Assembly: GCA_947565635.1 (NCBI GenBank)
Contig: CANOGU010000013.1
Coordinates: forward strand, 1 to 59,191
Origin: an uncultured Lactobacillus sp.
GTDB taxonomy: Bacteria > Bacillota > Bacilli > Lactobacillales > Lactobacillaceae
Reading direction: 5' to 3'
Length of the DNA: 59,191 bases
The notes under the pieces are model-generated. The model saw only the letters and a list, made by a program, of their open reading frames with translations, ran no database searches and was not told the DNA's origin. Of the stretch, positions 2,177 through 56,996 are shown in pieces (position 1 is the stretch's first letter; each line of letters starts with the position of its first letter). A program made the translations under genes and the position numbers.

Positions 2177-3793
2177 TTACTTCTTACTGTTTTTATCTTC
2201 AAATTCTTTGTAGTAATCTTTCAACACATCTAATACTTGTTTACCAATTACTGCGTAGTCATTAGTTGGCAAGTTGGCTTGAGATACTCTTAACTCACCT
2301 GGTTTTGCTCCAAAACCAACACCATCAACTAAGACAACACCGTTCTTTTCAGCTAATCTCAATAGGAAGTCAACTTGTTGGAAATCATCAGCTAAGTAAT
2401 CTCTAAATTCTTTTCCATAAGTCTTTTCAGCTAATCTATATACGTCAATTAATGAATAATAGTGAGTATTAGTATCCGTGTTATCTTCTGGAGCACCCAT
2501 AGCTTTATGCAAATCTTGGTATCTTTTATCAACTAATTTTCTAGCAATTTCAATATATGGATCACTAGTTCCACCATTTGTAGTCGTTAACATATGTCTT
2601 AAGGAGAATAGGCTTTCCATAATTTGTTGTGGAGTTGACAACCCAGCTGTGTGATATAAACCGATTGATCTACTATCAGCTACTAAACGGTCAATGAATT
2701 TCATCTTCGCAGGATCTAAGACATTGCTGCCATAACGTTTATTTAATTCAGCTTTATCTGCAGCATCTAACTTAGAAATATTATGATCAAAGACGTTTTC
2801 ATCGTTTAAGCCAATAACTCCTAGTCTCCAACCTGTACAACCATATAATTTCGAATATGAGTAAACTAACATGGTATTGTATGGAACAACACTGTAAATA
2901 CTCTTAAAGTGAGGAACAAAAGCACCATATACTTCATCACTAATAATCATTAGATCTGGATTCTTAGTAGTAGCTTGTTTAATCGCAGTTAAAGCAGTTT
3001 CATCAAATTCTTTTGAAGTAGGATTGGTTGGATTAACGACAATGAATGCTTTTACTGATGGATCTGCTAATTTTTCAATTTCTTTTGGATTAATTTCCCA
3101 GTTGTTCTTTTCATATGAATGCAAGTCTACTTCGACTAAGTCATAATCATTCAATTCAGGGATTCTCAAATATGGAGTAAAAATTGGAGTATTAATAGCA
3201 ATTTTATCTCCTTTATTCAACAAATGATTTTCTGATAAAGAATGAAATGCATAAACAATTGCTGCAGTGGCACCCTCAGTTGGAAATAGTTGCGTTTCAT
3301 TCTCCAAATCTACGCCTTCATATGATAGACCTTGAAGATAATGATTAATTATCACTTGCGTATTCTTCAAACATCTGTCAGGAACTGGATAATCATTTCC
3401 AATTACTCCGTTTACCCATTCAGCTACAACATCGTCACGATCTAGCTTCAAAGTATCGTGACAATAATTTACGGCATCAACTAGGAATTGATCTTCTTCA
3501 TTTTTATCTGGATCTAAAAATGCAAATAATCTTTCCCTAATTCCTTCTGTTGGCATATAACCAGCCATTATGCCATTATCAATGGTTTGCTTTGAATCAT
3601 ATACACCAAATTGTACTAATCGTGCAAATGCCAAACGAGAAATAGTTTGTATCCAATTTGGATTTCCTCGACCAGCATTTAAGAAAATATTACTTTGCTC
3701 ATTTTTTTGAGCTAAAGCAAGCATTTTTCTGCTTATTTCAAAAGCTCCTAGCTTCTCCAACTCTTTCTCATCTTGATTACTAAAGTTATTCAT
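2177..3793 (-). CDS. aspD: Aspartate 4-decarboxylase (bifunctional aspartate aminotransferase type)
   Basis: A 538-residue PLP enzyme of the fold-type I AspD family, which converts L-aspartate to L-alanine and CO2. The N-terminal NAGRGNPNW motif is typical of AspD. The PLP lysine sits in SYSKLYGCTGWRLG, preceded by the ISDEVYGAF aspartate-tyrosine motif and the VVNPTNPTS loop. The start at 3793 is chosen because AAGGAGAG lies just upstream; an in-frame extension to 3898 reads through the presumed promoter and is not credible as protein. It is the first gene of an operon with aspT. The reaction consumes a cytoplasmic proton, so the pair probably serves acid tolerance and energy conservation. 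Confidence 0.92.
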   Translation of the reverse strand: MNNFSNQDEKELEKLGAFEISRKMLALAQKNEQSNIFLNAGRGNPNWIQTISRLAFARLVQFGVYDSKQTIDNGIMAGYMPTEGIRERLFAFLDPDKNEEDQFLVDAVNYCHDTLKLDRDDVVAEWVNGVIGNDYPVPDRCLKNTQVIINHYLQGLSYEGVDLENETQLFPTEGATAAIVYAFHSLSENHLLNKGDKIAINTPIFTPYLRIPELNDYDLVEVDLHSYEKNNWEINPKEIEKLADPSVKAFIVVNPTNPTSKEFDETALTAIKQATTKNPDLMIISDEVYGAFVPHFKSIYSVVPYNTMLVYSYSKLYGCTGWRLGVIGLNDENVFDHNISKLDAADKAELNKRYGSNVLDPAKMKFIDRLVADSRSIGLYHTAGLSTPQQIMESLFSLRHMLTTTNGGTSDPYIEIARKLVDKRYQDLHKAMGAPEDNTDTNTHYYSLIDVYRLAEKTYGKEFRDYLADDFQQVDFLLRLAEKNGVVLVDGVGFGAKPGELRVSQANLPTNDYAVIGKQVLDVLKDYYKEFEDKNSKK

Positions 3794-3854
3794 AATTCTC
3801 TCCTTTTCAAAAACAATAAGGGCTAATAAATAACACCCTTCAACTTTCGCCTTT

Positions 3855-3881
3855 AGTATAATAAAAAAAAAAAAAATGCAA
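3855..3881 (-). promoter_or_regulatory. Candidate aspD promoter with poly-T spacer
   Basis: On the minus strand a -35-like TTGCAT (3881-3876) and a -10 TATACT (3860-3855) are separated by 15 bases that are almost all T: a run of 14 T at 3876-3863. The same architecture precedes the tyrosine-decarboxylase-like gene near 6006-6033. Confidence 0.6.
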
Positions 3882-3900
3882 TATATTAGGCTTAGCATCT

Positions 3901-6005: not shown

Positions 6006-6033
6006 TTGTTTTTTTTTTTTTTTTTATTATGCT
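6006..6033 (+). promoter_or_regulatory. Candidate promoter with 17-T spacer before the decarboxylase gene
   Basis: TTGTTT (6006-6011) and TATGCT (6028-6033) are separated by 16 bases consisting mostly of a 17-T homopolymer (6009-6025). The motif ATTATRCTAAA following the T tract is shared with the aspD promoter. Confidence 0.55.
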
Positions 6034-6100
6034 AAAAGGTGTCAGGTTAATACAGCGTTATTTAATAAACGCCACTTATTTTAAAAGGAGGATTATTAAA

Positions 6101-7939
6101 ATGAGTGAAGATATAAATTATAAATCACTATTCATTGGGGACAAATCAGAAAATGGGTCTACCTATCTTGACGAATTGACTAGATTGGTACAAAACCACT
6201 TAGGATGGAGAAAGAATTATATTCCTTCTGATATTCCTGCCATTACTGATAATGACGAAACAAAGAAAGAATATCAAGATTCATTGCGTCGCCAACATGA
6301 AGTATTGACTGAATTAGACCAAAGATTACGTCCAGGCACTATCCCATGGATGTCAGCTGGTCGTTATTGGGGACAAATGAACTCAGATACTTTAATGCCA
6401 TCAATGTTAGCTTATTGCTACGCCATGCTATGGAATAGTAACAACGTTGCTTTGGAATCTTCAATGGCAACCTCAAAGATGGAAGCAGAAGTTGGTGAAG
6501 ACTTCGCTAAGCTTTTTGATTATAAGCATGGCTGGGGTCACATTACTCATGATGGTTCAATGGCTAACCTTGAAGGTTTATGGTACGCTCGTCAATTTAA
6601 ATCTATGCCTTTAGCTTTCAAAGAAGTTGTTCCCGATAAAGTAAAGGGTAAGAGCGAATGGGAATTGCTCAACATGTCAGTTGAAGACGTTTTGAAGATC
6701 CTTGCTACCCTTACACCTGAACAAATTGATGAAGTTAAAGCCCACTCTTCACGTAGTGGTAAAAACATTCAAAAATTAGGTAAGTTCATTGTTCCTTACA
6801 CTAAGCACTATTCTTGGTTGAAGGCCTTAGATATTTCTGGAGTTGGCTTGGATCAAATGATTCAAATTCCTGTAAAGAGCGACTTCAGAATGGATATTGA
6901 CAAGTTAGAAAGCACTATTAAGGATCTTGCTGCAAAGAAGATTCCAATCTTAGGCGTTGTAGCTGTTGTCGGTACTACTGAAGAAGGACAAGTTGATGAA
7001 GTAGATCGTATCGTTAAGTTCCGTAAAGAAATGGAAAAACAAGGCGTTTACTTCTATCTTCACGTTGATGCTGCTTACGGTGGTTATGGTCGTGCATTAT
7101 TCAAGGATGAAAATGGAAACTTTGTAGAATACGATCAATTAGCTGATCTCTTAAAGAAACACCATGTATTCAATTACCCAGTTAGAATTTCTGAACATGT
7201 TTACCGTGGTTTTAAGGCTATTGAAGAGGCTGAATCAGTAACAGTTGATCCACACAAGATGGGGTATGTTCCATATTCAGCAGGTGGTATCGCCATTAAG
7301 TATCAAGCTATGCGTAACGTTATTTCTTACTTTGCTCCATATGTATTTGAAAAGAAGACAGCTTCTGCACCTGACATGTTAGGTTCATACATTATCGGTG
7401 GATCGAAAGCTGGTGCTACTGCAGCTGCCGTTTGGGCTGCACATCGTACTCTTCCATTGAATGTAACAGGATATGGACGTTTAGTTGGATCATCTATTGA
7501 AGCTGCTCAAAGATTCAGAAACTTCTTAAAGAAATTGAAGTTTAATGTAAAAGGCAAAGAAGTTGATGTTTATCCACTAGATAACCCTGACTTTAACATG
7601 GTTGATTGGGTATTAAAGATTAATGGTGAAACTAGTCTAGAAAAGACAAACGAATTAAACGAAAAAATGTTTGACTTCTCATCAATGTACGATAGTCACG
7701 TTTACTCAAATAGATTCCTTACCTCCCACACTATCTTTAGAAAAGATACATATGGCGATTCACCAGTTCCATTTATCGAAAAGATGGGCTTTACCAAAGA
7801 TGAATGGAACAAAGTTGGTTCTGTAACCTTGTTACGTGCCGCTATTATGACTCCTTATCTAAATGACAATAAGCTATTTGACTTCTATTCAAAGGGAATA
7901 GCTAAATCTATGGAGAAGAAATTAAACGAAATTCTTTAA
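6101..7939 (+). CDS. tdc: Tyrosine decarboxylase-like PLP enzyme
   Basis: A 612-residue group II PLP decarboxylase that closely follows the enterococcal/Lactobacillus brevis TyrDC pattern, about 620 residues long. Landmarks are the N-terminal LFIGDKSENG, the SAGRYWGQMNS block, HVDAAYGGYG carrying the PLP aspartate, and DPHKMGY with the Schiff-base lysine at about residue 386. The start at 6101 follows AAAAGGAGG; an in-frame upstream extension lacks a ribosome binding site. The expected reaction is L-tyrosine to tyramine plus CO2, possibly also phenylalanine or L-DOPA. The APC antiporter gene starts 19 bases downstream, forming a standard decarboxylase-antiporter operon. Substrate specificity is inferred by family and not proven. 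Confidence 0.88.
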   Translation: MSEDINYKSLFIGDKSENGSTYLDELTRLVQNHLGWRKNYIPSDIPAITDNDETKKEYQDSLRRQHEVLTELDQRLRPGTIPWMSAGRYWGQMNSDTLMPSMLAYCYAMLWNSNNVALESSMATSKMEAEVGEDFAKLFDYKHGWGHITHDGSMANLEGLWYARQFKSMPLAFKEVVPDKVKGKSEWELLNMSVEDVLKILATLTPEQIDEVKAHSSRSGKNIQKLGKFIVPYTKHYSWLKALDISGVGLDQMIQIPVKSDFRMDIDKLESTIKDLAAKKIPILGVVAVVGTTEEGQVDEVDRIVKFRKEMEKQGVYFYLHVDAAYGGYGRALFKDENGNFVEYDQLADLLKKHHVFNYPVRISEHVYRGFKAIEEAESVTVDPHKMGYVPYSAGGIAIKYQAMRNVISYFAPYVFEKKTASAPDMLGSYIIGGSKAGATAAAVWAAHRTLPLNVTGYGRLVGSSIEAAQRFRNFLKKLKFNVKGKEVDVYPLDNPDFNMVDWVLKINGETSLEKTNELNEKMFDFSSMYDSHVYSNRFLTSHTIFRKDTYGDSPVPFIEKMGFTKDEWNKVGSVTLLRAAIMTPYLNDNKLFDFYSKGIAKSMEKKLNEIL

Positions 7940-7958: not shown

Positions 7959-9386
7959 ATGAAAACTCAAACTTCAAAAGTAGGTCTAGGGACCTTCATT
8001 GGGATGACGGTGGCATTAGCCGCAAGTATCCGTAATATTCCTGATGTTGCCGGTAGTGGCTGGACAATGTTCTTCTACATGGGAGTAGCTACATTTCTAT
8101 TCGCTTTACCTATTTGTTTAATATCCGGTGAATTTGGTAGTACTTTCCCTGAAAAAGGTGGTCCTGAGCTTTGGGTTAATAATTCATTAGGTCCAAGCTT
8201 CGGATTTGCAACCTCTTGGCTTCTTTGGGTACAAATGTTCCCTGGAATGGTTATGGTTGCTTCCGCACTACCTCCATTATTAGCAACGGCTATTAATCAA
8301 GATAAACTAGGCACTAATAACATATTTACTCTTATCGTTATTTTAGTAGTGTATTGGATTATTACATTTTTGAATATGAAATTCGACATGGCTAAGATTA
8401 CTGGACAAATCGGTGCTTGGCTAGGAATCTATATTCCATTAGCTGTAATGACTATTCTTGGTATTTGCGCTGTAATCAAAAATGGCATTCAACCAGCTTC
8501 TATTTTAGGACATTTTAATGCCTCTAAATTAATTCCTGATCCAACTGATATGAAATCACTTCAATTCTTCTCCCCTATAATCTTTATTTTTACGGGAATT
8601 GAAATGTCTTCAGTCTACATTACTAGAATTAAAAAAGTATCTTACTACCCAATTGGTGTTTTGGTAACTTTAGTATTCATGTTCTTATTAAATACCGTAA
8701 ATGGATTTCTAGAAAGTGCGGTAGTTCCATCTTCACAAATTGACTTAAACAATATCGTTCAACCAGTTATTGTTTTTGATAAAGTTTTAGGGTTACCATC
8801 TTGGATTGCCAATATTTTTAGCATTCTAGTCTTTATTGGAGTCAGCGTCCAATTGTCTGCATGGGCATCCGGACCCGGAAAAACTATTATTTCAAGTGCA
8901 CAAAAGGGTTTATACCCTCCAAAATTCAAATTCTGGAAGACAGACAAATTTGGTGATTCCCACACAGTTTTACTTACTCAAGCTACGATTATTTCCCTCT
9001 TTGCTTTAGTATATCTATTAATTCCTGGTATCAACGCTGCCTTTCTAGAATTAGTAAATGCTACGACAGTTCTATACTGTGTAGTATATGTATTTATGGC
9101 AATTGGATTTATTAAGTTAAGATTGCAAAAGCCTGACTTAAAGCGTCCATTTAAAGTCGGAAATACATTTGTTGCATGGATTGTTTCTATTGTATTGATT
9201 GCCACAATTATCATTGCTTTAATTGCTACTTTCGCAGTTGGTACTTTAACCAACTTCATTATTGTAGCAATTATCAGTATTGTCTTAACACTTTTACCAT
9301 TCTGGTTCGTTAAGATTAGAAAGGATTCATGGACAAGTGAAGTTAAAGATTTAATGGCTAAAGAAAATAGCGCTTCTAAGCACTAA
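7959..9386 (+). CDS. tyrP: Tyrosine/tyramine-type APC antiporter
   Basis: A 475-residue, about 12-helix transporter of the glutamate:GABA-antiporter branch of the APC superfamily, the branch that contains TyrP. The first helix region holds GTFIGMTVALAASIRNIPDVAGSG, broken here as GTFIGMTVAL then IRNIPDVAGSG. AAAGGAAG precedes the ATG. It is co-transcribed with the decarboxylase gene and followed by a terminator. The likely role is import of the amino acid in exchange for the decarboxylated amine, giving net charge movement and so proton motive force. Confidence 0.82.
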   Translation: MKTQTSKVGLGTFIGMTVALAASIRNIPDVAGSGWTMFFYMGVATFLFALPICLISGEFGSTFPEKGGPELWVNNSLGPSFGFATSWLLWVQMFPGMVMVASALPPLLATAINQDKLGTNNIFTLIVILVVYWIITFLNMKFDMAKITGQIGAWLGIYIPLAVMTILGICAVIKNGIQPASILGHFNASKLIPDPTDMKSLQFFSPIIFIFTGIEMSSVYITRIKKVSYYPIGVLVTLVFMFLLNTVNGFLESAVVPSSQIDLNNIVQPVIVFDKVLGLPSWIANIFSILVFIGVSVQLSAWASGPGKTIISSAQKGLYPPKFKFWKTDKFGDSHTVLLTQATIISLFALVYLLIPGINAAFLELVNATTVLYCVVYVFMAIGFIKLRLQKPDLKRPFKVGNTFVAWIVSIVLIATIIIALIATFAVGTLTNFIIVAIISIVLTLLPFWFVKIRKDSWTSEVKDLMAKENSASKH

Positions 9387-9928: not shown

Positions 9929-11578
9929 ATGGAAGACAATAAAACTCAACAGAAAAAGACCTATATATCTGTCCTTGCCCTAACAATGATGAATGTTTCC
10001 ATAGTTGCCGGAATCGCAAACGATGTTCAGCAATCATTCTATGGACTTGCATCAGTAACGTACTTCGCAATCGGAGCTATTTGTTTCTTCATCCCAACTG
10101 CTTTAGTTGCGGCTGAACTAGCTTCTGGTTGGAGTAACCGCGGAGGAATTTTCCGCTGGGTTGGTGAAGGTTTAGGTAAAGGCTGGGGACTAACCTGTTT
10201 ACTTATCCTGTGGTTCCAATTAATTTTGAACTTTGGGATGGGGATGCCAAGCTTTACAGCAACCATCATGTTTTATACACCAAACTATGATGCGGCTGTA
10301 AAATTCGCTCAAGCACCACAACACGAATTGCTGATCATGACAGGTTGGGTCATTTTCTATTGGATCCTTACTTATTTAGCTACTAAAGGTGTTAAGGCCT
10401 TTTCTAACATCGCTAAATACGGTGTTATTATCGGAAGTCTTATTCCTTTAGCCGTTATGATTATTTTAGCTATTGTTTGGGTAGCTCAGGGGCATCAACC
10501 TGTTATTCCAATGACACCGAAGGGATTAATTCCTAAGTGGAATGGAATGAGTACATTAGCATTAGCTGCCGGAGTATTCTTCTCATACACCGGTATTGAC
10601 ACTAACGCCGCTCACATTAAGCAATTGAAGCATCCTGAAAAAGATTTCACTAAAGCAATGTTTATCTCAATTATTCTTGCTTTCTTAATCTTTGTTGTTG
10701 GTACTGTAATCATTGCAATGATTATTCCTGAAAAACAAATTAATGTTTTATACACTCTCTACTCTGTATTCAGGGTTTTAGGATCAACAATTGGTATGCC
10801 TTGGTTGTACATGGTTCTTGTTTGGGCCTTACTATTCAATACTATTGCGATGGTTGTAACTAATATGGCAGGTCCTTCATTTATGTTAGGCCAAGTTGGA
10901 GGAAGTGGATTTTTACCACACTGGTTCCAACAAAACAATAAACATAACATGCCTGCACATTTAATGTATACGCAAATCGCTGGAATGACGATTGTTGCCT
11001 ATCTAGTTAAATTAATTCCAAATGTTGAAGGATTTGTTATTCTAGTTACTCAAACAATCACTGTTCTGTACATGTTTTATTACATTTTAATGTTTACAGC
11101 TTTCTTGCGTTTACGTTATGACCAACCTAACCGTCCTCGTTCATTTAAAGTTCCCGGTGGTAGTTTTGGTGCTTGGCTTGTCGCAGGAGTAGGTATAATT
11201 TCATCCGTTTTCGGGATTGTTCTTGCTATCTATCCTCCAGCACAAGTTAAATCAGAAGTTGGTTCATCAACAGTTTATATTTCTGTTATTTTAGCTTTAG
11301 TTGCTGTCGTTTTAATTGTTTGTTTTGTCTTATATCAACTTTCTAAGAAACACCCAGAGTGGGTAAATCCGAACAATAAATTTGCTCCGTTTACTTGGGA
11401 AATTGAAGGACTTAAGAAACCTGGAAAGGCTTTATCAAACGTTCCAACAACTGTTATGTCTAAAGATCAAAATCCAATGGGTATGCCAATTAAGCGCCCA
11501 TATAAGCCAAATGAACAAGTTTCTGATGACGTTGTTAAAGCAGATGAAAACAATGAGATTTCAACTGATAAAAGTTAA
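9929..11578 (+). CDS. GadC-like APC permease with extended C-terminal tail (unit 1)
   Basis: A 549-residue transporter of the glutamate:GABA-antiporter group with about 12 membrane segments, followed by a hydrophilic cytosolic tail of about 75 residues (from KKHPEW to the end). The tail recalls the C-plug of Escherichia coli GadC, which closes the channel at neutral pH. ATG 9929 is chosen because GAAGGAG (9911-9916) is correctly spaced. The paralogue at 14471 is highly similar, and 109 bases of the tail-coding region are identical between them. No glutamate decarboxylase is nearby; the next genes are peptidases, so the substrate is more likely a peptide, an amino-acid conjugate or their products. 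Confidence 0.85.
   Translation: MEDNKTQQKKTYISVLALTMMNVSIVAGIANDVQQSFYGLASVTYFAIGAICFFIPTALVAAELASGWSNRGGIFRWVGEGLGKGWGLTCLLILWFQLILNFGMGMPSFTATIMFYTPNYDAAVKFAQAPQHELLIMTGWVIFYWILTYLATKGVKAFSNIAKYGVIIGSLIPLAVMIILAIVWVAQGHQPVIPMTPKGLIPKWNGMSTLALAAGVFFSYTGIDTNAAHIKQLKHPEKDFTKAMFISIILAFLIFVVGTVIIAMIIPEKQINVLYTLYSVFRVLGSTIGMPWLYMVLVWALLFNTIAMVVTNMAGPSFMLGQVGGSGFLPHWFQQNNKHNMPAHLMYTQIAGMTIVAYLVKLIPNVEGFVILVTQTITVLYMFYYILMFTAFLRLRYDQPNRPRSFKVPGGSFGAWLVAGVGIISSVFGIVLAIYPPAQVKSEVGSSTVYISVILALVAVVLIVCFVLYQLSKKHPEWVNPNNKFAPFTWEIEGLKKPGKALSNVPTTVMSKDQNPMGMPIKRPYKPNEQVSDDVVKADENNEISTDKS
11390..11498 (+). repeat. 109-bp identical tract in permease tail (copy 1)
   Basis: Identical base for base to 15947-16055, whereas the flanking parts of the two permease genes differ at many positions. 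It codes for the tail from FTWEIEGLKK through GMPIKR. Confidence 0.9.
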
Positions 11579-11611
11579 ATAAATTATCGATTTAAAGAAA
11601 AGAGATTAATT

Positions 11612-12937
11612 ATGGTACAAATTGATAATGAAGATTTAAAACAAGTTAGATCAGAATTTTTAGATACACCAAAGTATCGTAATACACAAAATGCCGTAAT
11701 GAAAAACGGTATTAAGAAATCAATCACAAATCAAAGTGTAGTTAATAGTGCACCATTTGTATTTTCAATTGATGTTGATTCAAATCATGTTCTAAATCAA
11801 AAACAATCCGGTCGTTGCTGGGATTTCTCTGGTTTAAACTTTATTCGCTATCACATTGAAAAAGATCATCATATAAAAAATATGGACTTATCAGGAAGCT
11901 ATGTTTACTTCTATGATAAGTTAGAAAAAGCTAATTATTTCTACCAAAACATTATTAACACAGCTGATCGTCCATTATCAGACCGTCTAGTTAACTGGTT
12001 ACTTACTACTCCTCAACAAGATGGTGGTGACTGGCAACTATTAGTAGACTTAATTGAAAAATACGGTATTGTTCCAATGGAAGCCTACCCAGAAACTGCT
12101 GCTAGTGCTAACTCACAAGAATTAAACCGTATGTTTAACAGAAAGTTACAAAAAGACGCTATGAAGTTACGTGATTTAGCTAATAGCGACGCATCTGATG
12201 AAAAGATGAAGAGTGTTCTTCACCACTTAAATGCAGAAAACTACCGTGTATTAGCTATTTCATTAGGTACTCCTCCAGACAAATTCACCTACGAATATCG
12301 TGATGAAAACAATGAATATCATACTACTGGTCAAGTTACACCAATAGAATTCTTCAAGAAGTTTGTTAACATCAACTTTGATGATTATGTTGAACTAATG
12401 AACTTACCAGGTGAAAATTATCCATATAATACTCCATTTGGCGTTGAAATCTCTGGCAATATGGTTGGTGGTCAACCAAGTCGTTACTTCAACGTTTCAA
12501 TGAAAGATATGGAAAAGACTGCTCTTGAACAATTAAAGGATGACGAACCTGTATGGTTTGGTTGTGACGTCCTACAAGAATGGGCTCCAGATGCTGGTTT
12601 ACTTGATGTTAATGTTTACGACTGGGATCGTTCATTTGGTATTAAGTTAGGTACTGATAAGACTAAGAGATTTGAATATCGTGAAAGTTTGCCAACTCAT
12701 GCAATGCTTATTTCTGGTGTTGACATGCGTGATGACAAGCCAATAAGATGGAAGATTCAAAACTCTTGGGGCACTAAGCCAGGTCACAAAGGTTACTTTA
12801 TTATGGGCAACGATTGGATGGAACAATATACCTACGAAACTGTTGTCAACAAGAAGTACTTAACTGATGAACAACTTGCTGCATATGAAAAAGAACCTGT
12901 AATGCTTCCATACTGGAACGCAATGAACCCAATTTAA
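11612..12937 (+). CDS. C1-family cysteine peptidase, PepC/bleomycin hydrolase type (unit 1)
   Basis: A 441-residue cytosolic peptidase of the PepC/PepE/PepG family. The catalytic Cys69 lies in QSGRCWDF, the histidine in PTHAML and the asparagine in QNSWG, so the triad is complete. The residue after GRCW is Asp, whereas the downstream paralogue has Met there, as is usual. In this family the C-terminus reaches into the active-site cleft; here it ends YWNAMNPI. There is no signal peptide. The gene begins 33 bases after the permease gene and probably shares its transcript. An aminopeptidase or specialised peptidase role in processing imported substrate is inferred. Confidence 0.88.
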   Translation: MVQIDNEDLKQVRSEFLDTPKYRNTQNAVMKNGIKKSITNQSVVNSAPFVFSIDVDSNHVLNQKQSGRCWDFSGLNFIRYHIEKDHHIKNMDLSGSYVYFYDKLEKANYFYQNIINTADRPLSDRLVNWLLTTPQQDGGDWQLLVDLIEKYGIVPMEAYPETAASANSQELNRMFNRKLQKDAMKLRDLANSDASDEKMKSVLHHLNAENYRVLAISLGTPPDKFTYEYRDENNEYHTTGQVTPIEFFKKFVNINFDDYVELMNLPGENYPYNTPFGVEISGNMVGGQPSRYFNVSMKDMEKTALEQLKDDEPVWFGCDVLQEWAPDAGLLDVNVYDWDRSFGIKLGTDKTKRFEYRESLPTHAMLISGVDMRDDKPIRWKIQNSWGTKPGHKGYFIMGNDWMEQYTYETVVNKKYLTDEQLAAYEKEPVMLPYWNAMNPI

Positions 12938-12977
12938 AGAATACTATTTCTTTAGTCTTTAGAAAGGACGATTATAT

Positions 12978-14402
12978 ATGGCATGTACCACTGTTATAGT
13001 TGGTAAAAAAGCCAATATTGCCGGTTCTACGATCATTGCTCGTAATTGCGATGCCGAGGTTTGTAATGTACCAGTAAAGTTTGTAGTTGTTCCTGCCAAA
13101 TCAGAAAAACAAACTTTCCATTCATATGTTACAGGCTTAGATATTCCTCTCCCTGAAAATGCACTTCGCTATCAAATGGCACCTTTTGTTGATTACAAAA
13201 TTCATGGTCAATTTGGTGAGTGTGGCATTAATAGTGAAAATGTAGCCATGAGTTCAACAGAAAGCCTATATGGTAATCCACAAGTTTTAGGATTAGACCC
13301 ACTTGTAAGTAATGGAATTGGTGAAGATGCGCTTTTAAGTATTGTATTACCTTTCATTCATTCTGCGCGGGACGGTGTCCAATATCTTGGTAAACTAATT
13401 GAAAAATATGGTTCACACGAAGGAAATGGAATTGCCTTTAGTGACAAAGATGAAGTTTGGTACATGGAAATTCCAACCGGTCACTATTGGGTTGCTGAAA
13501 AACTTGATGATGACAAAGCGGCTGTAATTGCTAATCAAGTTTCACTTCAAGATATTGACTTTGATGATAGTAGTCGTTTTATGTGGGCTCCTGGCATTAG
13601 AGAGTTCGTAGACAGTAATAACCTTAACCCTGATCCTAATGAATTTAATTTTCGCCATATTTTTGGTACGTCTAATGCACGTGATCGTTGCTACAACACT
13701 CCACGCGTTTGGTTTGGTCAACGCTACTTGGGTCATATTGCTTTCTCACCTACTAGCAACAATTTAGACTTTAGTTTTAAACCAGATCGTAAATTAAAGC
13801 GTGAAGATGTCGGCTATGTTCTTAGTTCTCATTACAATGAAACTATTTATGATCCTCTAGCAGATGACACGCCAAAAGATGACAGAACTAAATTCCGTCC
13901 AATTTCTATGGCAAGATGTGCAGAATCGCATATTCTAGAAATTCGAAATAAAGTACCAGCTGGAATTGCTGGAATTGCTTGGTTTAATTTTGCTCCAACG
14001 GCCTTTAATCCATATGTGCCATTTTATGCTAATGCAAATGGTACGGCTCCTCAGTACGAGAATACAACTGATGCATATAGTCCTGAAGAAGCTTATTGGT
14101 TATCAAGGACTGTAGCTGCTTTAATTCAACCAAGCTATAATGAAATGAAATCTCTATTAAGTGGCTTAGATGGTTTCTTGCCTACTGCTGATCAACTTAC
14201 TCATCATTTAGTCCATGTAACTGATGAGAAAGCTGAAAAGTTAAGTGGACAAAAGCTAACTCAATATCTAACTAAGGCTAATGCAGCTAATGCACAAAAG
14301 GTTCTTGACCTTACACATAAAACTGTAGGAGATTTAGTGAAACGTGAATTAACTTTATCTCGTTTAAGTTTTTCAATTAATACTGATCGTTTACAAAATT
14401 AA
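12978..14402 (+). CDS. pepD: C69-family dipeptidase (PepD type)
   Basis: A 474-residue N-terminal-nucleophile hydrolase of peptidase family C69. The nucleophile is probably Cys3 in MACTTVIVGKKA, so the propeptide would be only two residues. The next conserved block, STIIARNCD, matches lactobacillar PepD. AGAAAGGAC precedes the ATG. The protein is expected to be cytosolic and to cleave dipeptides. It is the third gene of unit 1 and is followed by a strong terminator, which separates the unit from the second permease. Confidence 0.87.
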   Translation: MACTTVIVGKKANIAGSTIIARNCDAEVCNVPVKFVVVPAKSEKQTFHSYVTGLDIPLPENALRYQMAPFVDYKIHGQFGECGINSENVAMSSTESLYGNPQVLGLDPLVSNGIGEDALLSIVLPFIHSARDGVQYLGKLIEKYGSHEGNGIAFSDKDEVWYMEIPTGHYWVAEKLDDDKAAVIANQVSLQDIDFDDSSRFMWAPGIREFVDSNNLNPDPNEFNFRHIFGTSNARDRCYNTPRVWFGQRYLGHIAFSPTSNNLDFSFKPDRKLKREDVGYVLSSHYNETIYDPLADDTPKDDRTKFRPISMARCAESHILEIRNKVPAGIAGIAWFNFAPTAFNPYVPFYANANGTAPQYENTTDAYSPEEAYWLSRTVAALIQPSYNEMKSLLSGLDGFLPTADQLTHHLVHVTDEKAEKLSGQKLTQYLTKANAANAQKVLDLTHKTVGDLVKRELTLSRLSFSINTDRLQN

Positions 14403-14409
14403 TTTAATA

Positions 14410-14440
14410 AAAGCTAGGTGACTCTCACCTAGCTTTTTCT
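14410..14440 (+). terminator. Terminator closing unit 1
   Basis: AAGCTAGGTGA and TCACCTAGCTT form a perfect stem followed by T residues. Confidence 0.85.
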
Positions 14441-14470
14441 TTAACGTATGTTATTTAGGAGATGTTAACA

Positions 14471-16135
14471 ATGATGGAAGATGCAAAGGAAAAGGATAAA
14501 AAGTCTGTCAAACAGATTTATATTTCCATCCTTGCTCTCACCCTAATGAACGTTACCATTATTGCCGGTATTGGTAATGACGTTCAGCAAGCCTTCTATG
14601 GTTTAGCTTCCGTTACCTATTTCGCTATTGGTGCTATTTGTTTCTTCATTCCTACAGCTTTAGTAGCTGCCGAACTAGCATCTGGCTGGAGTAATCGTGG
14701 TGGTATCTTTCGATGGGTTGGTGAAGGTTTAGGCAAAGGCTGGGCACTAACCTGTTTATTAATTCTATGGTTCCAAACAATGATTAACTTTGGGATGGGG
14801 ATGCCTAGTTATGCTGCAACAATTATGTTCTATACACCAATGTATAATAAAGCGGTTCAATTCGCTCAACACCCACAACATGAAGTATTAATCATGACTG
14901 GATTCATTATTTTATATTGGGTACTAACTTTTGTTGCCACTAAGGGAGTTAAAGCATTCAGTAGTGTTGCTAAATATGGTGTTTTAATTGGTACCTTTAT
15001 TCCCTTAGCTTTAATGGTTATTTTAACCATTGTTTGGTTGTGTCAAGGACACGCTCCTGCCATTCCAATGACACCAAAAGGATTAATTCCTAAGTGGAAT
15101 GGAATGAGCACTTTAGCCTTAGCAGCCGGAGTATTCTTCTCATACACCGGTATTGATATGAATGCCGCTCACATCAAACAATTAAAACATCCTGAAAAGG
15201 ATTTCACAACGGCAATGTTCTTCTCTATTATCTTAGTATTCTTAATCTTCGTTGTTGGTACTGTAATCATTGCAATGGTTGTTCCAGAAAAGCAGATTAA
15301 TGTTATTTATACTTTGAACACAGTATTCAGAACACTTGGTGCCACAATTGGAATCCCATGGTTATATATGGTTCTTGTGTGGGCTGGATTATGTAATGTT
15401 TTAGCCAGTGTTATTACTAACATGGCTGGTCCCTCATTTATGCTAGGACAAGCTGGTGGTTCTGGATTTTTGCCAAAGTGGTTCCAGGAGAAGAACAAAC
15501 ATCAAATGCCTGCTCATCTAATGTACACTCAAATTGCAGGGATGACGATAATTGCCTACTTGGTTAAATTACTTCCAAATGTTGAAGGTTTCGTCATTAT
15601 GTTAACTCAGACCATCACAGTTCTTTACATGTTCTACTACATCTTAATGTTCATCACATTTTTAAGATTAAGATACGATCAACCTAACCGTCCTCGCCCA
15701 TTTAAAGTTCCAGGTGGCAAAGTTGGGGCATGGATTGTTGCTGGTCTTGGTTTAATCTCTAGTGTATTCGGTATTGTATTAGCCATCTATCCACCAGCAC
15801 AAGTTAAAGCCGAAGTTGGCTCCCCTGTTACTTATGTTGTAACTATTTGTATTTTGGTAGCACTTATTTTAGCTATTTGCTTTATTATGTATCAACTATC
15901 AAAGAAGCACCCCGAATGGGTTGATCCACACAACAAATTTGCTCCATTTACTTGGGAAATTGAAGGACTTAAGAAACCTGGAAAGGCTTTATCAAACGTT
16001 CCAACAACTGTTATGTCTAAAGATCAAAATCCAATGGGTATGCCAATTAAGCGCCACTATGGTCCAGACGAGCAAGCTGCAGCTAAATTAGTCAAAGAAG
16101 CTAATGAGAATAAACTTACCCCTACTGACAATTAA
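14471..16135 (+). CDS. GadC-like APC permease with extended C-terminal tail (unit 2)
   Basis: A 554-residue paralogue of the permease at 9929 with the same topology and tail. The first half is very similar in protein sequence (for example FYGLASVTYFAIGAICFF occurs in both), but the DNA has diverged except in the 109-bp tail tract. The start at 14471 is preferred because AGGAG at 14457-14461 is nine bases away; an ATG at 14462 abuts the ribosome binding site. It heads unit 2, followed by a second C1 peptidase and a C45-type hydrolase. The two permeases probably handle related but distinct substrates. Confidence 0.85.
   Translation: MMEDAKEKDKKSVKQIYISILALTLMNVTIIAGIGNDVQQAFYGLASVTYFAIGAICFFIPTALVAAELASGWSNRGGIFRWVGEGLGKGWALTCLLILWFQTMINFGMGMPSYAATIMFYTPMYNKAVQFAQHPQHEVLIMTGFIILYWVLTFVATKGVKAFSSVAKYGVLIGTFIPLALMVILTIVWLCQGHAPAIPMTPKGLIPKWNGMSTLALAAGVFFSYTGIDMNAAHIKQLKHPEKDFTTAMFFSIILVFLIFVVGTVIIAMVVPEKQINVIYTLNTVFRTLGATIGIPWLYMVLVWAGLCNVLASVITNMAGPSFMLGQAGGSGFLPKWFQEKNKHQMPAHLMYTQIAGMTIIAYLVKLLPNVEGFVIMLTQTITVLYMFYYILMFITFLRLRYDQPNRPRPFKVPGGKVGAWIVAGLGLISSVFGIVLAIYPPAQVKAEVGSPVTYVVTICILVALILAICFIMYQLSKKHPEWVDPHNKFAPFTWEIEGLKKPGKALSNVPTTVMSKDQNPMGMPIKRHYGPDEQAAAKLVKEANENKLTPTDN
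15947..16055 (+). repeat. 109-bp identical tract in permease tail (copy 2)
   Basis: Second copy of the tract at 11390-11498, with no base difference over 109 positions. The boundaries are sharp on both sides. Confidence 0.9.
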
Positions 16136-16160
16136 TTTTTATTAGAAAAGAGATAATATT

Positions 16161-17489
16161 ATGTCAGAAATTAATCCTACTGATTTAAAAACTATTAGAT
16201 CAGATTTTCTTGATAATCAAAGATACCGTGTTACTCAAAATGCAGTTATGAAAAATGGTATTAAAAATTCCATTACTAATCAACGTGCTATTGATAATAG
16301 CAGTTTTGCATTCTCAGTTGATGTTGACTCTAACAAAGTAATGAATCAAAAGCATTCCGGCCGTTGCTGGATGTTTAGTGGTTTAAACTTTGTTCGTTTC
16401 TTAATTGAAAAGCACCATAATTTAAAAGATATGGAGCTCTCTCCTGATTATCTATTCTTCTATGATAAGTTAGAACGTGGTAATTACTTCTATAACAACA
16501 TTGTAAAAACTGCTACTAAACCTCTTTCTGATCGTGAAGTCATGTTTTTACTTGCTACGCCACAAGAAGATGGTGGTGATTGGAATTTCTTAATTAATTT
16601 AATTGAAAAATATGGACTTGTTCCTAATGACTTAATGCCTGAAACCACACCAGCCTGGAATACAACTGAGCTTAATCAGATGTACAACAGAAAACTGGAT
16701 AAAGATGCAATGAAGTTGCGCGACCTTGTTAACAATGAAGCTTCCGACACTAAAATTAAAAGCGTAATCCGTCAAATGAATCAAGAAAACTATCGGATCT
16801 TAAGCATTTGTTTTGGTACTCCTCCAGAGCACTTCACTTATGAATATCGTGATAAAAATAATAACTACCACACAACTGGTAGAATTACACCACTTGAATT
16901 TTATAAGAAGTTTTCTGATATTAACTTAAATGATTACATTGAACTTATGAATTTACCTGGTGGTGGCTACAAGTTTAATCAAACTTATACAATTGACCTA
17001 TGTAATAACGTTATTGGCGGAAAAGATAGTCATTACTTAAATGTTCCAATGCATGATATGAGACGGATGACTATTAATCAACTAAAAGATGGCGATCCAG
17101 TTTGGTTTGCCTGCGATGTTTTACAAGAATGGAATAACCCAGCTGGTTTACTTTCACTAGGTGTTTATGACTGGAAACGTTCATTTGGAATTACTTTAGG
17201 TAAAGATAAAGCCAATAGAGTTCAATATCGTGAAAGCATGCCAACTCATGCAATGCTAATTTGTGGGGTTGATTTACAAGACGATGAGCCAACTAAGTGG
17301 AAAGTTCAAAACTCATGGGGCAATAAACCAGGACACAAGGGATACTTCATTATGGATAATCCTTGGATGGACCAATACACTTATAATACTGTAGTAAATA
17401 AGAAGTATTTATCAGTTACGGAATTAAAGTCCTATCAAGAAACTACCCCTATTACTCTTCCTTATTGGACAGCCATGTTATCTGATTAG
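16161..17489 (+). CDS. C1-family cysteine peptidase, PepC/bleomycin hydrolase type (unit 2)
   Basis: A 442-residue paralogue of the peptidase at 11612, colinear along its whole length. The triad is intact: Cys in HSGRCWMF, His in PTHAML and Asn in QNSWG. It ends in YWTAMLSD, so the cleft-facing C-terminal arm differs from unit 1, which in this family affects amino- versus endopeptidase behaviour. It starts 25 bases after the permease stop and precedes the C45-type gene by 31 bases, so the three genes probably form one operon. Confidence 0.88.
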   Translation: MSEINPTDLKTIRSDFLDNQRYRVTQNAVMKNGIKNSITNQRAIDNSSFAFSVDVDSNKVMNQKHSGRCWMFSGLNFVRFLIEKHHNLKDMELSPDYLFFYDKLERGNYFYNNIVKTATKPLSDREVMFLLATPQEDGGDWNFLINLIEKYGLVPNDLMPETTPAWNTTELNQMYNRKLDKDAMKLRDLVNNEASDTKIKSVIRQMNQENYRILSICFGTPPEHFTYEYRDKNNNYHTTGRITPLEFYKKFSDINLNDYIELMNLPGGGYKFNQTYTIDLCNNVIGGKDSHYLNVPMHDMRRMTINQLKDGDPVWFACDVLQEWNNPAGLLSLGVYDWKRSFGITLGKDKANRVQYRESMPTHAMLICGVDLQDDEPTKWKVQNSWGNKPGHKGYFIMDNPWMDQYTYNTVVNKKYLSVTELKSYQETTPITLPYWTAMLSD

Positions 17490-17520
17490 TTTCTAATTAA
17501 TTAAAATGAAGGTGAATGCT

Positions 17521-18876
17521 ATGGTATTAACAGATGCGCAAAACAAAATCGTTGCAAAAGCTACTAAAAAAGATGTTAATGGTTGGCATTATTTAACAGT
17601 TCAAGGTGACCCTTATGAAATTGGTTTTCAACATGGATACCTTCTAACTGATGAATTTAGAGATGCAATTCGGGTTTATACACATATGACTCTTGAATTA
17701 TATGGAATGGATTATTCCTTCTTTGTAGAACAAGCTGTCAAAATGCATAAAGATAAAATTCCTGAAGAATATTTAGAAGAAATGCAAGGAATGGCGGATG
17801 GCTTCACTGCCAATGGCTTTGAAACCAGTGTTGATGACATTATTGGCTGGAATGATTGGATGGAACTAACAGGCTATTGGTGGCCGCAAGTTGCAGCTAA
17901 CTATTCCAATAATCCACCACAAGGTCCACGTGGTTCTCACTGCTCTGGATTCGTTGCAACAGGATCAGCTACTAAAGATGGTAAACCAGTAATTGCTCAT
18001 GAAAGTTTTGATGATTTCTGGAGCGGTCAGTACTTTAACATCTGTGAAGAGATTCATCCAACTAATGGCCATGCATTTAAGATGCAAACTGTTCCAGGCT
18101 ATCTTGATTCAATGACCGACTTCTATGTAACAGATGCTGGCCTTGGAATTACCGAAACCACTATTGCTGGATTCGTTGGTTACGACGTAAATGGAATTCC
18201 AGAATTTATTAGAGCTCGTAAAGCTACTCAATATGCGAATAATATCGATCAATGGGTAAAATTAGTCAATGAAGGCAATAATGGCGGTTACGCAAATATT
18301 TGGCTTCTTTGCAATATCAATACTGGTGAGATCGCTCGTTATGAACAAGGTTTAAAGCATCAGGAATTACTCGAATCAACTGACGGTTTCTATTATGGCT
18401 GTAATGCTTGTCACAACCCACGTATTCGTAACCTTGAGTGTGTTGACAATGGCTATAACGACACTCGCCAACAAACTGGTGCTCGTAGAGCACGCTTTGA
18501 AGAATTATTACCTGAAGTATCTGGTACGATTGATGATGGAGTTGCCAAGAAGATCTTAGCGGACAAGTACGATCCATACTTAGGATATCAATGTGCTTCT
18601 TCACGTAATATTTGTGCTCATTATGACGTTGACCCACAATACTATGCTGACGATCCACATGGCGTCTGGAATGTACCTTTCTTCCCAGGTGGTTCATGTG
18701 ATGGTAAATGTGCAGATGCTACTGATATTCAAAACCTGAATATGTGGGGTATCTTCGGCCGAGCTGATGGTGAACCATTTGATGCAAAAGACTTTATGAA
18801 GCAACATCCTGAATGGAATTGGCAAAAAGGTTATCTCTATGATAGACCAAGTCAGCCATGGACACTATTTGACTAG
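17521..18876 (+). CDS. C45-family autoproteolytic acyltransferase/amidohydrolase
   Basis: A 451-residue protein with the C45 (isopenicillin-N acyltransferase, carcinine hydrolase) signature. A proregion of about 140 residues ends at GSH/CSGF, so Cys141 would become the N-terminal nucleophile after self-cleavage. It is followed by TKDGKPVIAHESFDDF, the usual continuation in this family. Phospholipase-B-like proteins share the fold. The start at 17521 follows AAGGTG; ATG 17506 overlaps that site. It is the last gene of unit 2 and takes the place that the C69 dipeptidase holds in unit 1. Hydrolysis of an N-acyl or isopeptide-like amide bond is inferred; the substrate is unknown. No signal peptide is seen. 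Confidence 0.78.
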   Translation: MVLTDAQNKIVAKATKKDVNGWHYLTVQGDPYEIGFQHGYLLTDEFRDAIRVYTHMTLELYGMDYSFFVEQAVKMHKDKIPEEYLEEMQGMADGFTANGFETSVDDIIGWNDWMELTGYWWPQVAANYSNNPPQGPRGSHCSGFVATGSATKDGKPVIAHESFDDFWSGQYFNICEEIHPTNGHAFKMQTVPGYLDSMTDFYVTDAGLGITETTIAGFVGYDVNGIPEFIRARKATQYANNIDQWVKLVNEGNNGGYANIWLLCNINTGEIARYEQGLKHQELLESTDGFYYGCNACHNPRIRNLECVDNGYNDTRQQTGARRARFEELLPEVSGTIDDGVAKKILADKYDPYLGYQCASSRNICAHYDVDPQYYADDPHGVWNVPFFPGGSCDGKCADATDIQNLNMWGIFGRADGEPFDAKDFMKQHPEWNWQKGYLYDRPSQPWTLFD

Positions 18877-18926
18877 ATAAGTTCAACTAACTTAATCAAA
18901 AATAAAATTATAAAAACTACTCATAG

Positions 18927-18960
18927 AAATAGGGTTAAGCATCATGCTTAACCCTATTTT
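18927..18960. terminator. Bidirectional terminator between unit 2 and the PAP2 gene
   Basis: A 16-bp perfect stem (AAATAGGGTTAAGCAT and its complement) with a single-base centre lies between two convergent genes, with T-runs on both strands. Confidence 0.85.
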
Positions 18961-21801: not shown

Positions 21802-22722
21802 CTAATCAAATATATCTAATTCTAATCCATCAACAATATCTCTTAACAAGTCTAAGCCCGCGATACTGTTACCATCTTTATCTAAGGCTGGACTAAAGAT
21901 CCCAATTCCATATTTATGAGGTGCAGCTGACATCAGACCACCACCAACACCACTTTTTGTTGGCACACCAATTAGTCGTGAATACGTTCCTGATTGATTA
22001 TATAGGCCAGTCGTCATCATCAATGACTTGATACAACGAGCTTCTTCATCAGAAATAATACGTTTGTTATCCCATGGTTTTACACCACCATTAGCTAAAA
22101 CAGCACCTAAATTTGCTAAAGAACGCGCAGTAACCATCATTGAACATTGCTTAAAGTAAGTATCAAGACTAGTTACTACATCCCCGAGCATCATGTTTTT
22201 AGATTCCATATAATATGCTAAAGACCGATCTAGATTACCCGTTCTTCTTTCAGAATGATAAATTATTTGATCTAAATAAAGATCTGGGTCATTACAAATA
22301 TCACGAGCAAAATCTAAGATTTCTTCAAATGCATCGTCACCCGTCTTACTTACTACCATCGAAGTTGTAGCAATTGCTCCAGCGTTAATAAAAGGATTCA
22401 ACGGATACTTAGCTCTTTCAATTTCCATATTTAGAATTGAATTGAAGGCAAAGCCTGTTTGACGGGATCCTACATGTTTAAATACTTCTTGTATGCCCAT
22501 CTTTTTAATAGCAAGCATTAAGGTAATTACCTTAGAAATACTTTCAATTGCAAAACGTACTTCACTTTGGCCAGCTTCACCTACTTCACCATCTTCTAAA
22601 TCATATAAAGCAACTCCGAGCTGCTTAGGATTAACTTCAGCTAAAGCCGGAATATAGCTAGCAACTTTTCCTTCTTTTTCTTTAGGTAAATTTTTCTTAA
22701 CTAATTTTTCTAATTGAATCAT
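21802..22722 (-). CDS. glsA: Glutaminase
   Basis: A 306-residue serine-dependent glutaminase with a beta-lactamase-like fold that hydrolyses L-glutamine to glutamate and ammonia. Ser61-x-x-Lys64 lies in ESISKVITLML, and NPFINAGAI and KSGVGGGL are further family motifs. The start at 22722 follows AGAGAT; an upstream TTG or ATG would add residues without family similarity. Ammonia release counters acid stress in some lactobacilli, which fits the decarboxylase systems at the left of the window. The gene is transcribed alone. Confidence 0.93.
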   Translation of the reverse strand: MIQLEKLVKKNLPKEKEGKVASYIPALAEVNPKQLGVALYDLEDGEVGEAGQSEVRFAIESISKVITLMLAIKKMGIQEVFKHVGSRQTGFAFNSILNMEIERAKYPLNPFINAGAIATTSMVVSKTGDDAFEEILDFARDICNDPDLYLDQIIYHSERRTGNLDRSLAYYMESKNMMLGDVVTSLDTYFKQCSMMVTARSLANLGAVLANGGVKPWDNKRIISDEEARCIKSLMMTTGLYNQSGTYSRLIGVPTKSGVGGGLMSAAPHKYGIGIFSPALDKDGNSIAGLDLLRDIVDGLELDIFD

Positions 22723-22815
22723 AGCTATCTCTTTTCTATGAAAATACACTCTCACTTTAAGCATAGTCGATTCAATTGATTAGGTGAAATATTTAAGATT
22801 ATAAAAAATATTATC

Positions 22816-24581: not shown

Positions 24582-25040
24582 TTAATCAATAGGAGAGATT
24601 TCTCGGATTTCAGCTAATTTCTTATACCAATATACGCTCTTCTTTGCGTAACACTTCTGCGTCTTAAAGTCGACATAGAATAGACCATAACACTTTGAAT
24701 AACCATTCGTCCAAGAGAACATGTCTTGACGTGACCAGACAAAGTAACCATTTACTGGAATACCAGCTTCAATTGCCTTAGCAACTTCTTCCGTATGTTG
24801 TCTTAGATAATCAATTCTTGGAGTATCATCAATTATCTTATCTTCACTTTCAAACTTATCCTTATAACCCATGACATTTTCAGTAATATAGATCGAATGA
24901 ACTAATGGATAATCATCATAGACACGCTTTAATTGGTCGTACATCCCTTGTGGATAAATAATCCAGTCCCAATCAGTTGCAGGCAAATCCTTAGGATGAA
25001 TCTCTTCACCAACATCCTTCATACCGTTGACGTCCGTACC
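24582..25040 (-). pseudogene. lacG: C-terminal remnant of 6-phospho-beta-galactosidase (GH1)
   Basis: The open frame codes for the last third of a GH1 enzyme of about 470 residues. It contains HPKDLPATDWDWIIYP, the nucleophile glutamate in YITENVMGYKD and the NGYFVWSRQDMFSWTNGY tail, a pattern closest to LacG. Upstream the frame stops at a TAA (25043-25041) and the acid/base half is missing. The uracil-permease promoter lies immediately beyond. There is no ribosome binding site, so it is presumably not expressed. Confidence 0.85.
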
Positions 25041-25095: not shown

Positions 25096-25114
25096 AAAAA
25101 GAAACAAATGTGAT

Positions 25115-25231
25115 GACCTTTAATATAGTCCCGTGAGGCTATCAAGGAAATCTGCGCGTAAACTATTTTTTATAGTTTTAAACAGAAACGACTATCTTAG
25201 AGGCAATTCTTCAGATAGTCGTTTTTTCTTT
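25115..25231 (+). promoter_or_regulatory. PyrR-binding attenuator of the uracil permease gene
   Basis: AGTCCCGTGAGGCT at 25127-25140 fits the PyrR anti-antiterminator motif ARUCCNGNGAGGYU and sits in a TATAGTC/GGCTATC hairpin. Downstream, AACGACTATCT (25187-25197) and AGATAGTCGTT (25213-25222) form an intrinsic terminator with a T-run. UMP-bound PyrR would hold the binding loop and favour termination, so uracil uptake falls when pyrimidines are plentiful. Confidence 0.88.
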
Positions 25232-56804: not shown

Positions 56805-56996
56805 TAAAAAACGTCCTATGATCATAAAATCATAGGACGAAGTTCATTTCGCGTTACCACCTAAGTTCCACACATATTGTGCGACACTCGTGCCCCTTAA
56901 CGCGGAAAGCAAACGATAGACTTTACCTATAAGGGCAAGTTCACAAGACAATTGTTAAGCTTTGCACCAACCAGCTCATCTCTAATAACAACCATA
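56805..56996 (-). promoter_or_regulatory. T-box leader of leuS, leucine specifier CUU
   Basis: On the minus strand the AG-bulge and apical part of stem I occur as AGAGATGAGCTGGTTGGTG (56983-56965). The specifier loop TGAACTTG (56943-56936) holds CTT directly after GAA, with CAAG/CTTG above and GGG/CCC below. The T-box AGGTGGTAACGCG is at 56862-56850, and the terminator CGTCCTATGAT/ATCATAGGACG with a T-run is at 56839-56805. The specifier matches leucine. Confidence 0.9.

Follow-up and report, generated by a model that had tools for sequence, protein, structure and literature searches.

The DNA analyzed here, a 59,191-nucleotide contig of an uncultured Lactobacillus sp. (CANOGU010000013.1; hereafter the window), carries two adjacent three-gene units, each of which associates a GadC-related antiporter bearing a conserved C-terminal tail with a C1B cysteine peptidase and a third hydrolase, of the C69 family in one unit and of the C45 family in the other. 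The parts, the retained catalytic residues, the conserved tail, the linkage across two phyla and the variation of the third enzyme are all read from sequence. The pairing of permease and hydrolases is found again in distant relatives, many of which live in the gut; it is therefore probably genuine and shared, serving in the use of peptide-like compounds and perhaps in defense against acid. The arrangement noticed by an initial annotation, made from the letters alone, is better founded than could be seen at that stage. The proposed mechanism is plausible rather than proven: that the permease carries the compound cleaved by the hydrolases, and that it merely exports the amino acids they release, are two closely competing readings.

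Two Tandem Units with Different Third Enzymes

The units lie head to tail at 9929–14402 and 14471–18876, and all six open reading frames (ORFs) are intact and on the plus strand:

9929–11578, plus strand: unit 1 antiporter, a GadC-related APC permease with a conserved C-terminal tail (AA_permease_2; TIGR03813 399.7 bits, cut-off 650; the ORF also opens at GTG 9917)
11375–11521, plus strand: conserved 49-residue tail of the unit 1 permease (tail search E 9.5e-28)
11612–12937, plus strand: unit 1 C1B cysteine peptidase, PepC/bleomycin-hydrolase family (Cys-His-Asn kept; C-terminus LPYWNAMNPI)
12978–14402, plus strand: unit 1 C69 dipeptidase, PepD family (Cys at residue 3; NF033678 568.8 bits, cut-off 250; 5iau E 4.3e-107)
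14409–14437, plus strand: terminator-like hairpin separating the units (-17.8 kcal/mol, z -6.43; absent from the list of the hairpin scan)
14471–16135, plus strand: unit 2 antiporter, 80% identical to the unit 1 permease (AA_permease_2; the ORF opens at 14462)
15932–16075, plus strand: conserved tail of the unit 2 permease (tail search E 5.7e-26)
16161–17489, plus strand: unit 2 C1B cysteine peptidase (Cys69, His363, Asn384; 4k7c E 3.9e-122)
17506–18876, plus strand: unit 2 C45 N-terminal nucleophile (Ntn) amidohydrolase/acyltransferase (predicted nucleophile Cys146; NF040521 180 bits, cut-off 85)
18926–18960, no strand assigned: terminator-like hairpin 3' of unit 2 (-21.2 kcal/mol, z -7.08)

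Family models bear out the order that the initial annotation had described, a permease followed by a peptidase and then by a third gene that differs. Shine-Dalgarno-like stretches favor ATG 9929, the start it had given for the unit 1 permease, and ATG 14471 or 14474 for that of unit 2. The C1B peptidases of the two units are 63% identical and the DNA repeats are in register, with a spacing of 4549–4557 bases; C69 and C45 both pass their curated models and, compared as proteins, have no meaningful similarity to each other. Given the strong terminator-like hairpin at 14409–14437, the units may not form one simple operon. The window is closely related to L. taiwanensis DSM 21401, with which it shares a C45 protein of 100% identity (rounded). 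Rfam offered no riboswitch or T-box that might identify the amino acid handled, with only two sub-threshold matches at the units.

Both C1B proteins match Peptidase_C1_2 strongly (537 and 522 bits, cut-off 22), and Cys69, His363 and Asn384, which we take to be the catalytic triad, are invariant in the 23 sequences aligned. Their initial designation as PepC-type holds for the family and fails for the C-terminus: the WDPMGALA arm of PepC proper is absent in 23/23 sequences, and the GALA end is found in the canonical copy of the same genome (L012), three other copies (L013–L015) being without it. This arm confers aminopeptidase activity on PepC, so the unit proteins, both without the GALA end, may be either exo- or endopeptidases. 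The C69 dipeptidase matches Peptidase_C69 at 453 bits and has its cysteine, Cys3, near the N-terminus. In C45, the predicted nucleophile Cys146 is invariant in 19/19 aligned sequences, and the protein appears to have an Ntn fold with an internal cysteine following a long pro-region; by sequence it weakly matches PLBD1 (E 3.1e-6). Its structural model is modest (predicted local distance difference test, pLDDT, of 63, with most of residues 363–456 below 50), and a reading of its pocket was set aside. Relatives from Mycetohabitans are about 44% identical; one of them, on plasmid L101 (44%), lies near 5-oxoprolinase and glutathione S-transferase genes, and no permease of the unit kind is annotated beside it.

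A Tail-Marked Relative of GadC

The permeases, initially called GadC-like antiporters, are GadC relatives that reach no GadC model cut-off, units 1 and 2 scoring 399.7 and 409.3 bits with TIGR03813 (cut-off 650), 330.6 and 332.1 with NF053662 (cut-off 640), and 201.8 and 195.1 with TIGR00910 (cut-off 673.5). Their modeled fold is the APC fold of amino-acid transporters and matches GadC, the PDB structure of which aligns to residues 28–480 only, with the tail outside the alignment. This tail, ..TWEIEGLKKPGK..SNVPT....QNPMGMPIK, or in a longer rendering FAPFTWEIEGLKKPGK..SNVPT....QNPMGMPIK, is strongly conserved and common to permeases from Lactobacillus through Coriobacteriia; judging from the family, it would lie on the cytosolic side. 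It is mostly modeled at pLDDT below 50–60, a confidence too low for the plug or docking readings of its structure, which were set aside. The permeases of Bifidobacterium and most of those of Coriobacteriia (~640–860 residues) carry a further low-complexity extension.

Searched with a 49-residue consensus, the tail is rare and patchy: it occurs in 20/189 Bifidobacteriaceae genomes, 17/296 Coriobacteriia genomes, 3/296 genomes of an Actinomycetota phylum sample and 5/398 genomes of the class of our Lactobacillus (three from its genus and two from another family of the order, f2, perhaps Enterococcus-like), and in a sample of its phylum in a single genome of 299, which is our own. It is present in all of 12 genomes chosen for the presence of C45, which represent 12 of the 27 C45 loci of the named-genome scan described below. 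A plasmid search with the permease at E 1e-60 returned 16 records, 31–37% identical and mostly annotated GadC. A third permease copy of the genome, 73% identical (L009; G000:C3:125383-126996), stands alone, with no hydrolase nearby. It lies between a gene for a 2.6-kaa protein with MBG/Muc_B2 repeats and an LPQTG motif and genes with SecY/SecA domains, probably an accessory secretion locus.

Linkage of Permease and Hydrolases in Two Phyla

The initial annotation had held that finding the three families scattered in relatives would speak against its proposal; they are not. Among 77 tail-permease genes of four groups in two phyla, a C1B gene lies no more than 6 kb away in 62 cases, and C1B, C69 or C45 in 64, in a tally that counts near-identical strains and two contig-edge fragments; with three coriobacterial loci found through C45 alone (L088, L093, L095) removed, the counts are 59/74 and 61/74. 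For any of the three hydrolases they are 22/27 in Lactobacillus, 21/27 in Bifidobacteriaceae, 19/21 in Coriobacteriia and 2/2 in f2, and for C1B alone 22/27, 20/27, 18/21 and 2/2, respectively. With six C1B genes in the 1.64-Mb genome, a gene picked at random would have one at 6 kb or less in about 5% of cases. The tally required the tail pattern P[MV]G.P[IVM], so that about a dozen permeases were left out (L072, L193 and L194; second copies in L179, L180, L189–L192, L196 and L202; fragments in L071 and L195); the second copies and fragments are mostly near C1B.

Of 75 genomes of the genus, 16 encode the permease (E ≤ 1e-150). It is paired with C1B in 14 of them, in one (G257) in broken frames; the exceptions are G368, where the permease sits at a contig end, and G399, without the pair. 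C45 occurs in 8/397 sampled genomes of the family, all eight among the 25 of the genus. Lactobacillus loci have both units in tandem, the permease–PepC–C69 unit alone (L060, L062, L066, L069) or the permease–PepC–C45 unit alone (L065, L067); the permease and peptidase of the latter two are of the unit-1 type, as would be expected from loss of the middle of the tandem. In L. johnsonii ATCC 33200 (L071/L098), the permease, C1B and C45 frames are broken at the location of the units.

A scan of named genomes gave 27 C45 loci, comprising six from Lactobacillus, 11 from nine named Bifidobacterium species, nine coriobacterial ones and one fragment of a Companilactobacillus metagenome-assembled genome. 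The order permease–PepC–C45 of Lactobacillus is mostly C45–PepC–permease in Bifidobacterium and in part of the Coriobacteriia (16/20 actinobacterial loci, namely 10/11 and 6/9, three of these six having ~1.8–1.9 kb between C45 and PepC); L086 and L097 have C45–permease without PepC, and L090 and L091 are interrupted by contig ends. In four coriobacterial clusters (L163, L164, L172, L173), the gene set is permease–APC–S10–C45–PepC, the extra genes encoding another permease and a 500-aa protein that matches serine carboxypeptidase (S10) in part; in L172 and L164 as well, these two stand between the permease and C45. Both f2 loci have the order C69–C69–TyrP-like–PepC–permease. The linkage anticipated by the initial annotation thus recurs in most relatives examined, with a variable order and with C69, C45 or a pair of C69 as third enzyme.

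In Bifidobacteriaceae L189–L192, the C1B gene is 3.8 kb from the permease with one intervening gene, which is pnp in L189, L190 and L192. Seven small Bifidobacteriaceae genomes (0.8–1.4 Mb; G626–G635; loci L187–L195, L197–L199, L179, L180, L202) have two to five tail matches each, some in tandem, and no C45 was labeled in these loci. On the Companilactobacillus contig (L100), an ORF combines the beginning of C1B with a portion of C45 and resembles a deletion scar.

A Separate Evolutionary History of C45

The three proteins differ in how the groups resemble one another, the mean identity between Lactobacillus and Bifidobacterium as against that between Bifidobacterium and Coriobacteriia being 78.7 versus 62.8% for C45, 45.1 versus 53.7% for C1B and 59.9 versus 57.1% for the permease. 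Phylogenies were inferred in a quick mode with Shimodaira–Hasegawa-like approximate likelihood ratio support only, from 42 C45, 60 C1B and 74/82 permease rows, leaving out near-duplicate or poorly framed loci (L054, L055, L071, L074, L075, L080, L082, L083, L089, L092, L094, L098) and short or weak ORFs. Lactobacillus and Bifidobacterium form one group in the C45 tree (support 100), whereas Bifidobacterium-type rows join Coriobacteriia in the C1B and permease trees (99 and 95). Approximately unbiased tests, the p-values of which presuppose groups named beforehand when this one came from the C45 tree, reject the Lactobacillus–Bifidobacterium group for C1B (p 0.006) and for the permease (p 0.014); for C45, they reject neither a grouping of Bifidobacterium with Coriobacteriia apart from Lactobacillus (p 0.148) nor the monophyly of Bifidobacterium (p 0.144). 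Most simply, C45 would have crossed between phyla separately from its partners and then joined an existing permease–C1B pair on both sides, likely in the direction from Bifidobacterium to Lactobacillus; the long outgroup branch keeps this direction from being proven.

Genomic Neighborhood of the Units

The window holds further transport and amino-acid genes on both sides of the units:

493–2157, minus strand: aspartate-alanine antiporter, AspT (TIGR03802 652.4, cut-off 546.95)
2177–3898, minus strand: aspartate 4-decarboxylase, AspD (TIGR03801 566.2, cut-off 435.1)
6029–7939, plus strand: tyrosine decarboxylase (TIGR03811 920.1 bits, cut-off 905.3)
7959–9386, plus strand: TyrP-like antiporter (NF040513 527.3 bits, below the cut-off of 630)
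21802–22764, minus strand: glutaminase A (TIGR03814 378.9 bits, cut-off 255.4)

With the AspT–AspD and tyrosine decarboxylase–TyrP pairs upstream, where an amino-acid permease is also found, and glutaminase downstream, the units sit in a stretch rich in enzyme–antiporter pairs; the glutaminase gene lies ~3 kb off on the opposite strand, past PAP2 and dhaLK genes. These neighbors, like the conservation of the tail across phyla and the pairing beyond Lactobacillus, had not been part of the initial annotation. The neighborhood is partly kept in relatives, with tyrosine decarboxylase–TyrP in L055 and L057 and the AspT–AspD pair in L058, and glutaminase adjoins the C69 unit in L060 and L069. PNPase, GlmM, CdaA, YbbR and deformylase genes beside some loci were dropped as partners, being housekeeping genes. 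Elsewhere in the window, the only Rfam matches above threshold are a T-box (56830–57028) preceding leucyl-tRNA synthetase and a PyrR element (25113–25227) preceding a uracil/xanthine-type permease; a family 1 glycosidase remnant lies at 24582–25022, with only profile positions 323–450 left.

What the Units May Do

The explanation that we rank first, while holding it tentatively, is that each unit forms a transport-coupled hydrolysis module. The GadC-type antiporter would take up from outside a compound held by an amide or peptide linkage, possibly a short peptide, an amino-acid amide or an N-acyl conjugate, in exchange for an amino-acid-like product made inside, and the C1B peptidase and the exchangeable Ntn hydrolase, both taken as cytosolic, would cleave what is imported, C69 acting on dipeptides and C45 on acyl-amino or aminoacyl amides. 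We infer the direction of transport, the nature of the substrate and the possible passing of the compound straight from permease to hydrolases. In our view, nothing points more strongly to a common function than that C45, having apparently moved between phyla, is linked to a permease–C1B pair on both sides. A role in acid survival or in the proton-motive force is suggested by the AspD–AspT, tyrosine decarboxylase–TyrP and glutaminase neighbors and by one report in which a "peptidase C45" of Bifidobacterium animalis A6 was induced over two-fold after 30 and 150 min at pH 2.5 (PMC12731931). That gene, BAA6_RS02185, is presumably the C45 gene of L184, the position of which fits its locus-tag rank.

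The tail may gate the permease, as that of GadC does, or dock the hydrolases. Its QNPMG motif recalls WDPMG, part of the canonical C1B arm that the unit peptidases lack, so that the tail might dock into the C1B peptidase of its unit and form a transport metabolon, a conjecture to which we give little credence. In its widest form, which we regard as possible but doubtful, transport-coupled hydrolysis would define one tail-marked antiporter lineage of gut bacteria, importing peptide-like or acylated amino compounds and exporting their cleavage products by hydrolysis-driven antiport, with interchangeable C69 and C45 enzymes, the latter passed between Lactobacillus and Actinomycetota, and yielding nitrogen and proton-motive force under acid.

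Several points weigh against transport-coupled hydrolysis. APC antiporters of known substrate carry free amino acids; moreover, plain peptide-bond hydrolysis consumes no net proton, so that a gain in acid resistance requires a charge difference in the exchange. The permeases reach ~400 of the 650 bits required by the best-matching model, that of a glutamine/GABA antiporter. Five of the 27 counted Lactobacillus tail-permease genes, including the solitary copy of our genome and one at a contig end (L064), have no hydrolase nearby, nor do L072, L193 and L194 among the permeases left out of the tally. C45 stands apart from the permease in L. hominis (L078) and ~7 kb from it in L077, and in both it adjoins a POT peptide symporter (PTR2 in both; TIGR00924 391 bits, cut-off 130, for L078), which suggests that peptides can arrive by another route. 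Lastly, acid survival rose in four overexpression cases, and B. animalis C45 on its own is not one of them (PMC12731931).

Nearly as likely, and ranking just under hydrolysis-coupled antiport, is an export of amino acids freed from peptides: peptides would enter via other transporters (POT, Opp) and be degraded by the hydrolases, and the antiporter would export surplus free amino acids or swap them for wanted ones, the linkage then joining a peptidase set to an amino-acid outlet. The oligopeptide:H+ symporters beside C45 in L078 and L077 fit this account, as do the serine-carboxypeptidase-like protein and the amino-acid permease added in the four coriobacterial clusters and the amino-acid transporter fold of the permease itself. 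C45 sits less easily with it, since this is not known as a general peptidase family, and no POT transporter was found among the scanned neighbors in Bifidobacterium and Coriobacteriia, a minority of all the neighbors there. The partner families C1B and C69, for their part, do act on peptides (PMC2827410).

It is improbable that the permease is a glutamine/glutamate-type antiporter paired with the nearby glutaminase, the peptidases merely supplying glutamine or glutamate from peptides. A glutamine/GABA antiporter model is indeed its best NCBIfam match, and glutaminase occurs both in the window and beside the C69 unit of L060 and L069; the score is nevertheless far below the cut-off, the glutaminase of the window is on the other strand at ~3 kb, and BLAST labeled no glutaminase-like ORF flanking the units in Bifidobacterium and Coriobacteriia. 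Still less credible is that C45 runs forward as an acyltransferase and makes N-acyl amino compounds that the permease exports, given that its partners C1B and C69 belong to hydrolase families, that C69 and C45 share one position, which fits hydrolysis better, and that no coenzyme A-dependent partner was seen among the neighbors scanned. A chance neighborhood of ordinary genes, conceivable where C1B, C69 and APC families are as common as in Lactobacillus, is very unlikely, since the linkage is seen, with altered order, in four groups from two phyla, and since the permease–C1B pairs that accompany C45 differ between the two sides.

Relation to Known Systems and Significance

Antiport driven by hydrolysis, as proposed in the initial annotation, has a precedent. 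In the tested glutaminase–GadC acid resistance system (AR2_Q; Escherichia coli YbaS, L. reuteri, Brucella), GadC works together with an amidohydrolase, the amide being cleaved inside the cell and the product leaving via GadC (PMC6250119). The units resemble AR2_Q in associating a GadC-related antiporter with a hydrolase and depart from it in having C1B, C69 and C45 enzymes and a permease that misses the GadC cut-offs and aligns with GadC over residues 28–480 only; a glutaminase A gene is present in the window, but on the other strand and beyond PAP2 and dhaLK. As in the AspD–AspT, tyrosine decarboxylase–TyrP and GadB–GadC pairs, two of which stand upstream in the window, the enzyme adjoins the antiporter, with hydrolysis in place of decarboxylation and no decarboxylase in the units. 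Full-text searches aimed at the permease–C1B–C69/C45 layout itself, thought at first to be possibly undescribed, gave short lists drawn mostly from outside the subscription literature, and no title or abstract in them reports it.

The unit peptidases belong to the same families as PepC, PepE/PepG (C1B) and PepD (C69) of the proteolytic system of lactic acid bacteria. Of the L. johnsonii peptidases listed in PMC2827410, two PepC homologs and an orphan PepD (GI 42518638, 42518641 and 42518640, respectively) probably correspond to the tandem units, judging from the order of their GI numbers; passages of that study treat them as peptidases, with PepD an orphan of unclear origin and function, and the word "permease" is absent from its text. 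C45 resembles isopenicillin N acyltransferase, PLBD proteins, acid ceramidase and NAAA in its apparent Ntn fold with an internal cysteine after a long pro-region, but it forms a distinct clade, in most of its loci accompanied by transporter and C1B peptidase genes. A Glu:GABA antiporter reported in the L. johnsonii exoproteome at 0.3% bile (PMC7931105) could not be linked to the unit genes, and GadB/GadC homologs of B. dentium are reported only from B. adolescentis, B. angulatum and B. dentium (PMC9004370). The available parts of PMC9004370 and PMC5826259 hold nothing on the units, nor does that of the L. taiwanensis genome paper (PMC7916312), in which dipeptidase, tyrosine decarboxylase and peptidase go unmentioned.

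If transport-coupled hydrolysis were confirmed, amide or peptide hydrolysis by cysteine and Ntn hydrolases would join the short list of enzyme–antiporter pairs that feed and protect gut bacteria, and the orphan genes for PepC, PepD and C45 of L. johnsonii, L. taiwanensis, several bifidobacteria and Coriobacteriia would acquire a function. The apparent transfer of C45 between phyla, together with its linkage to different permease–peptidase pairs, suggests a shared metabolite used by several lineages.

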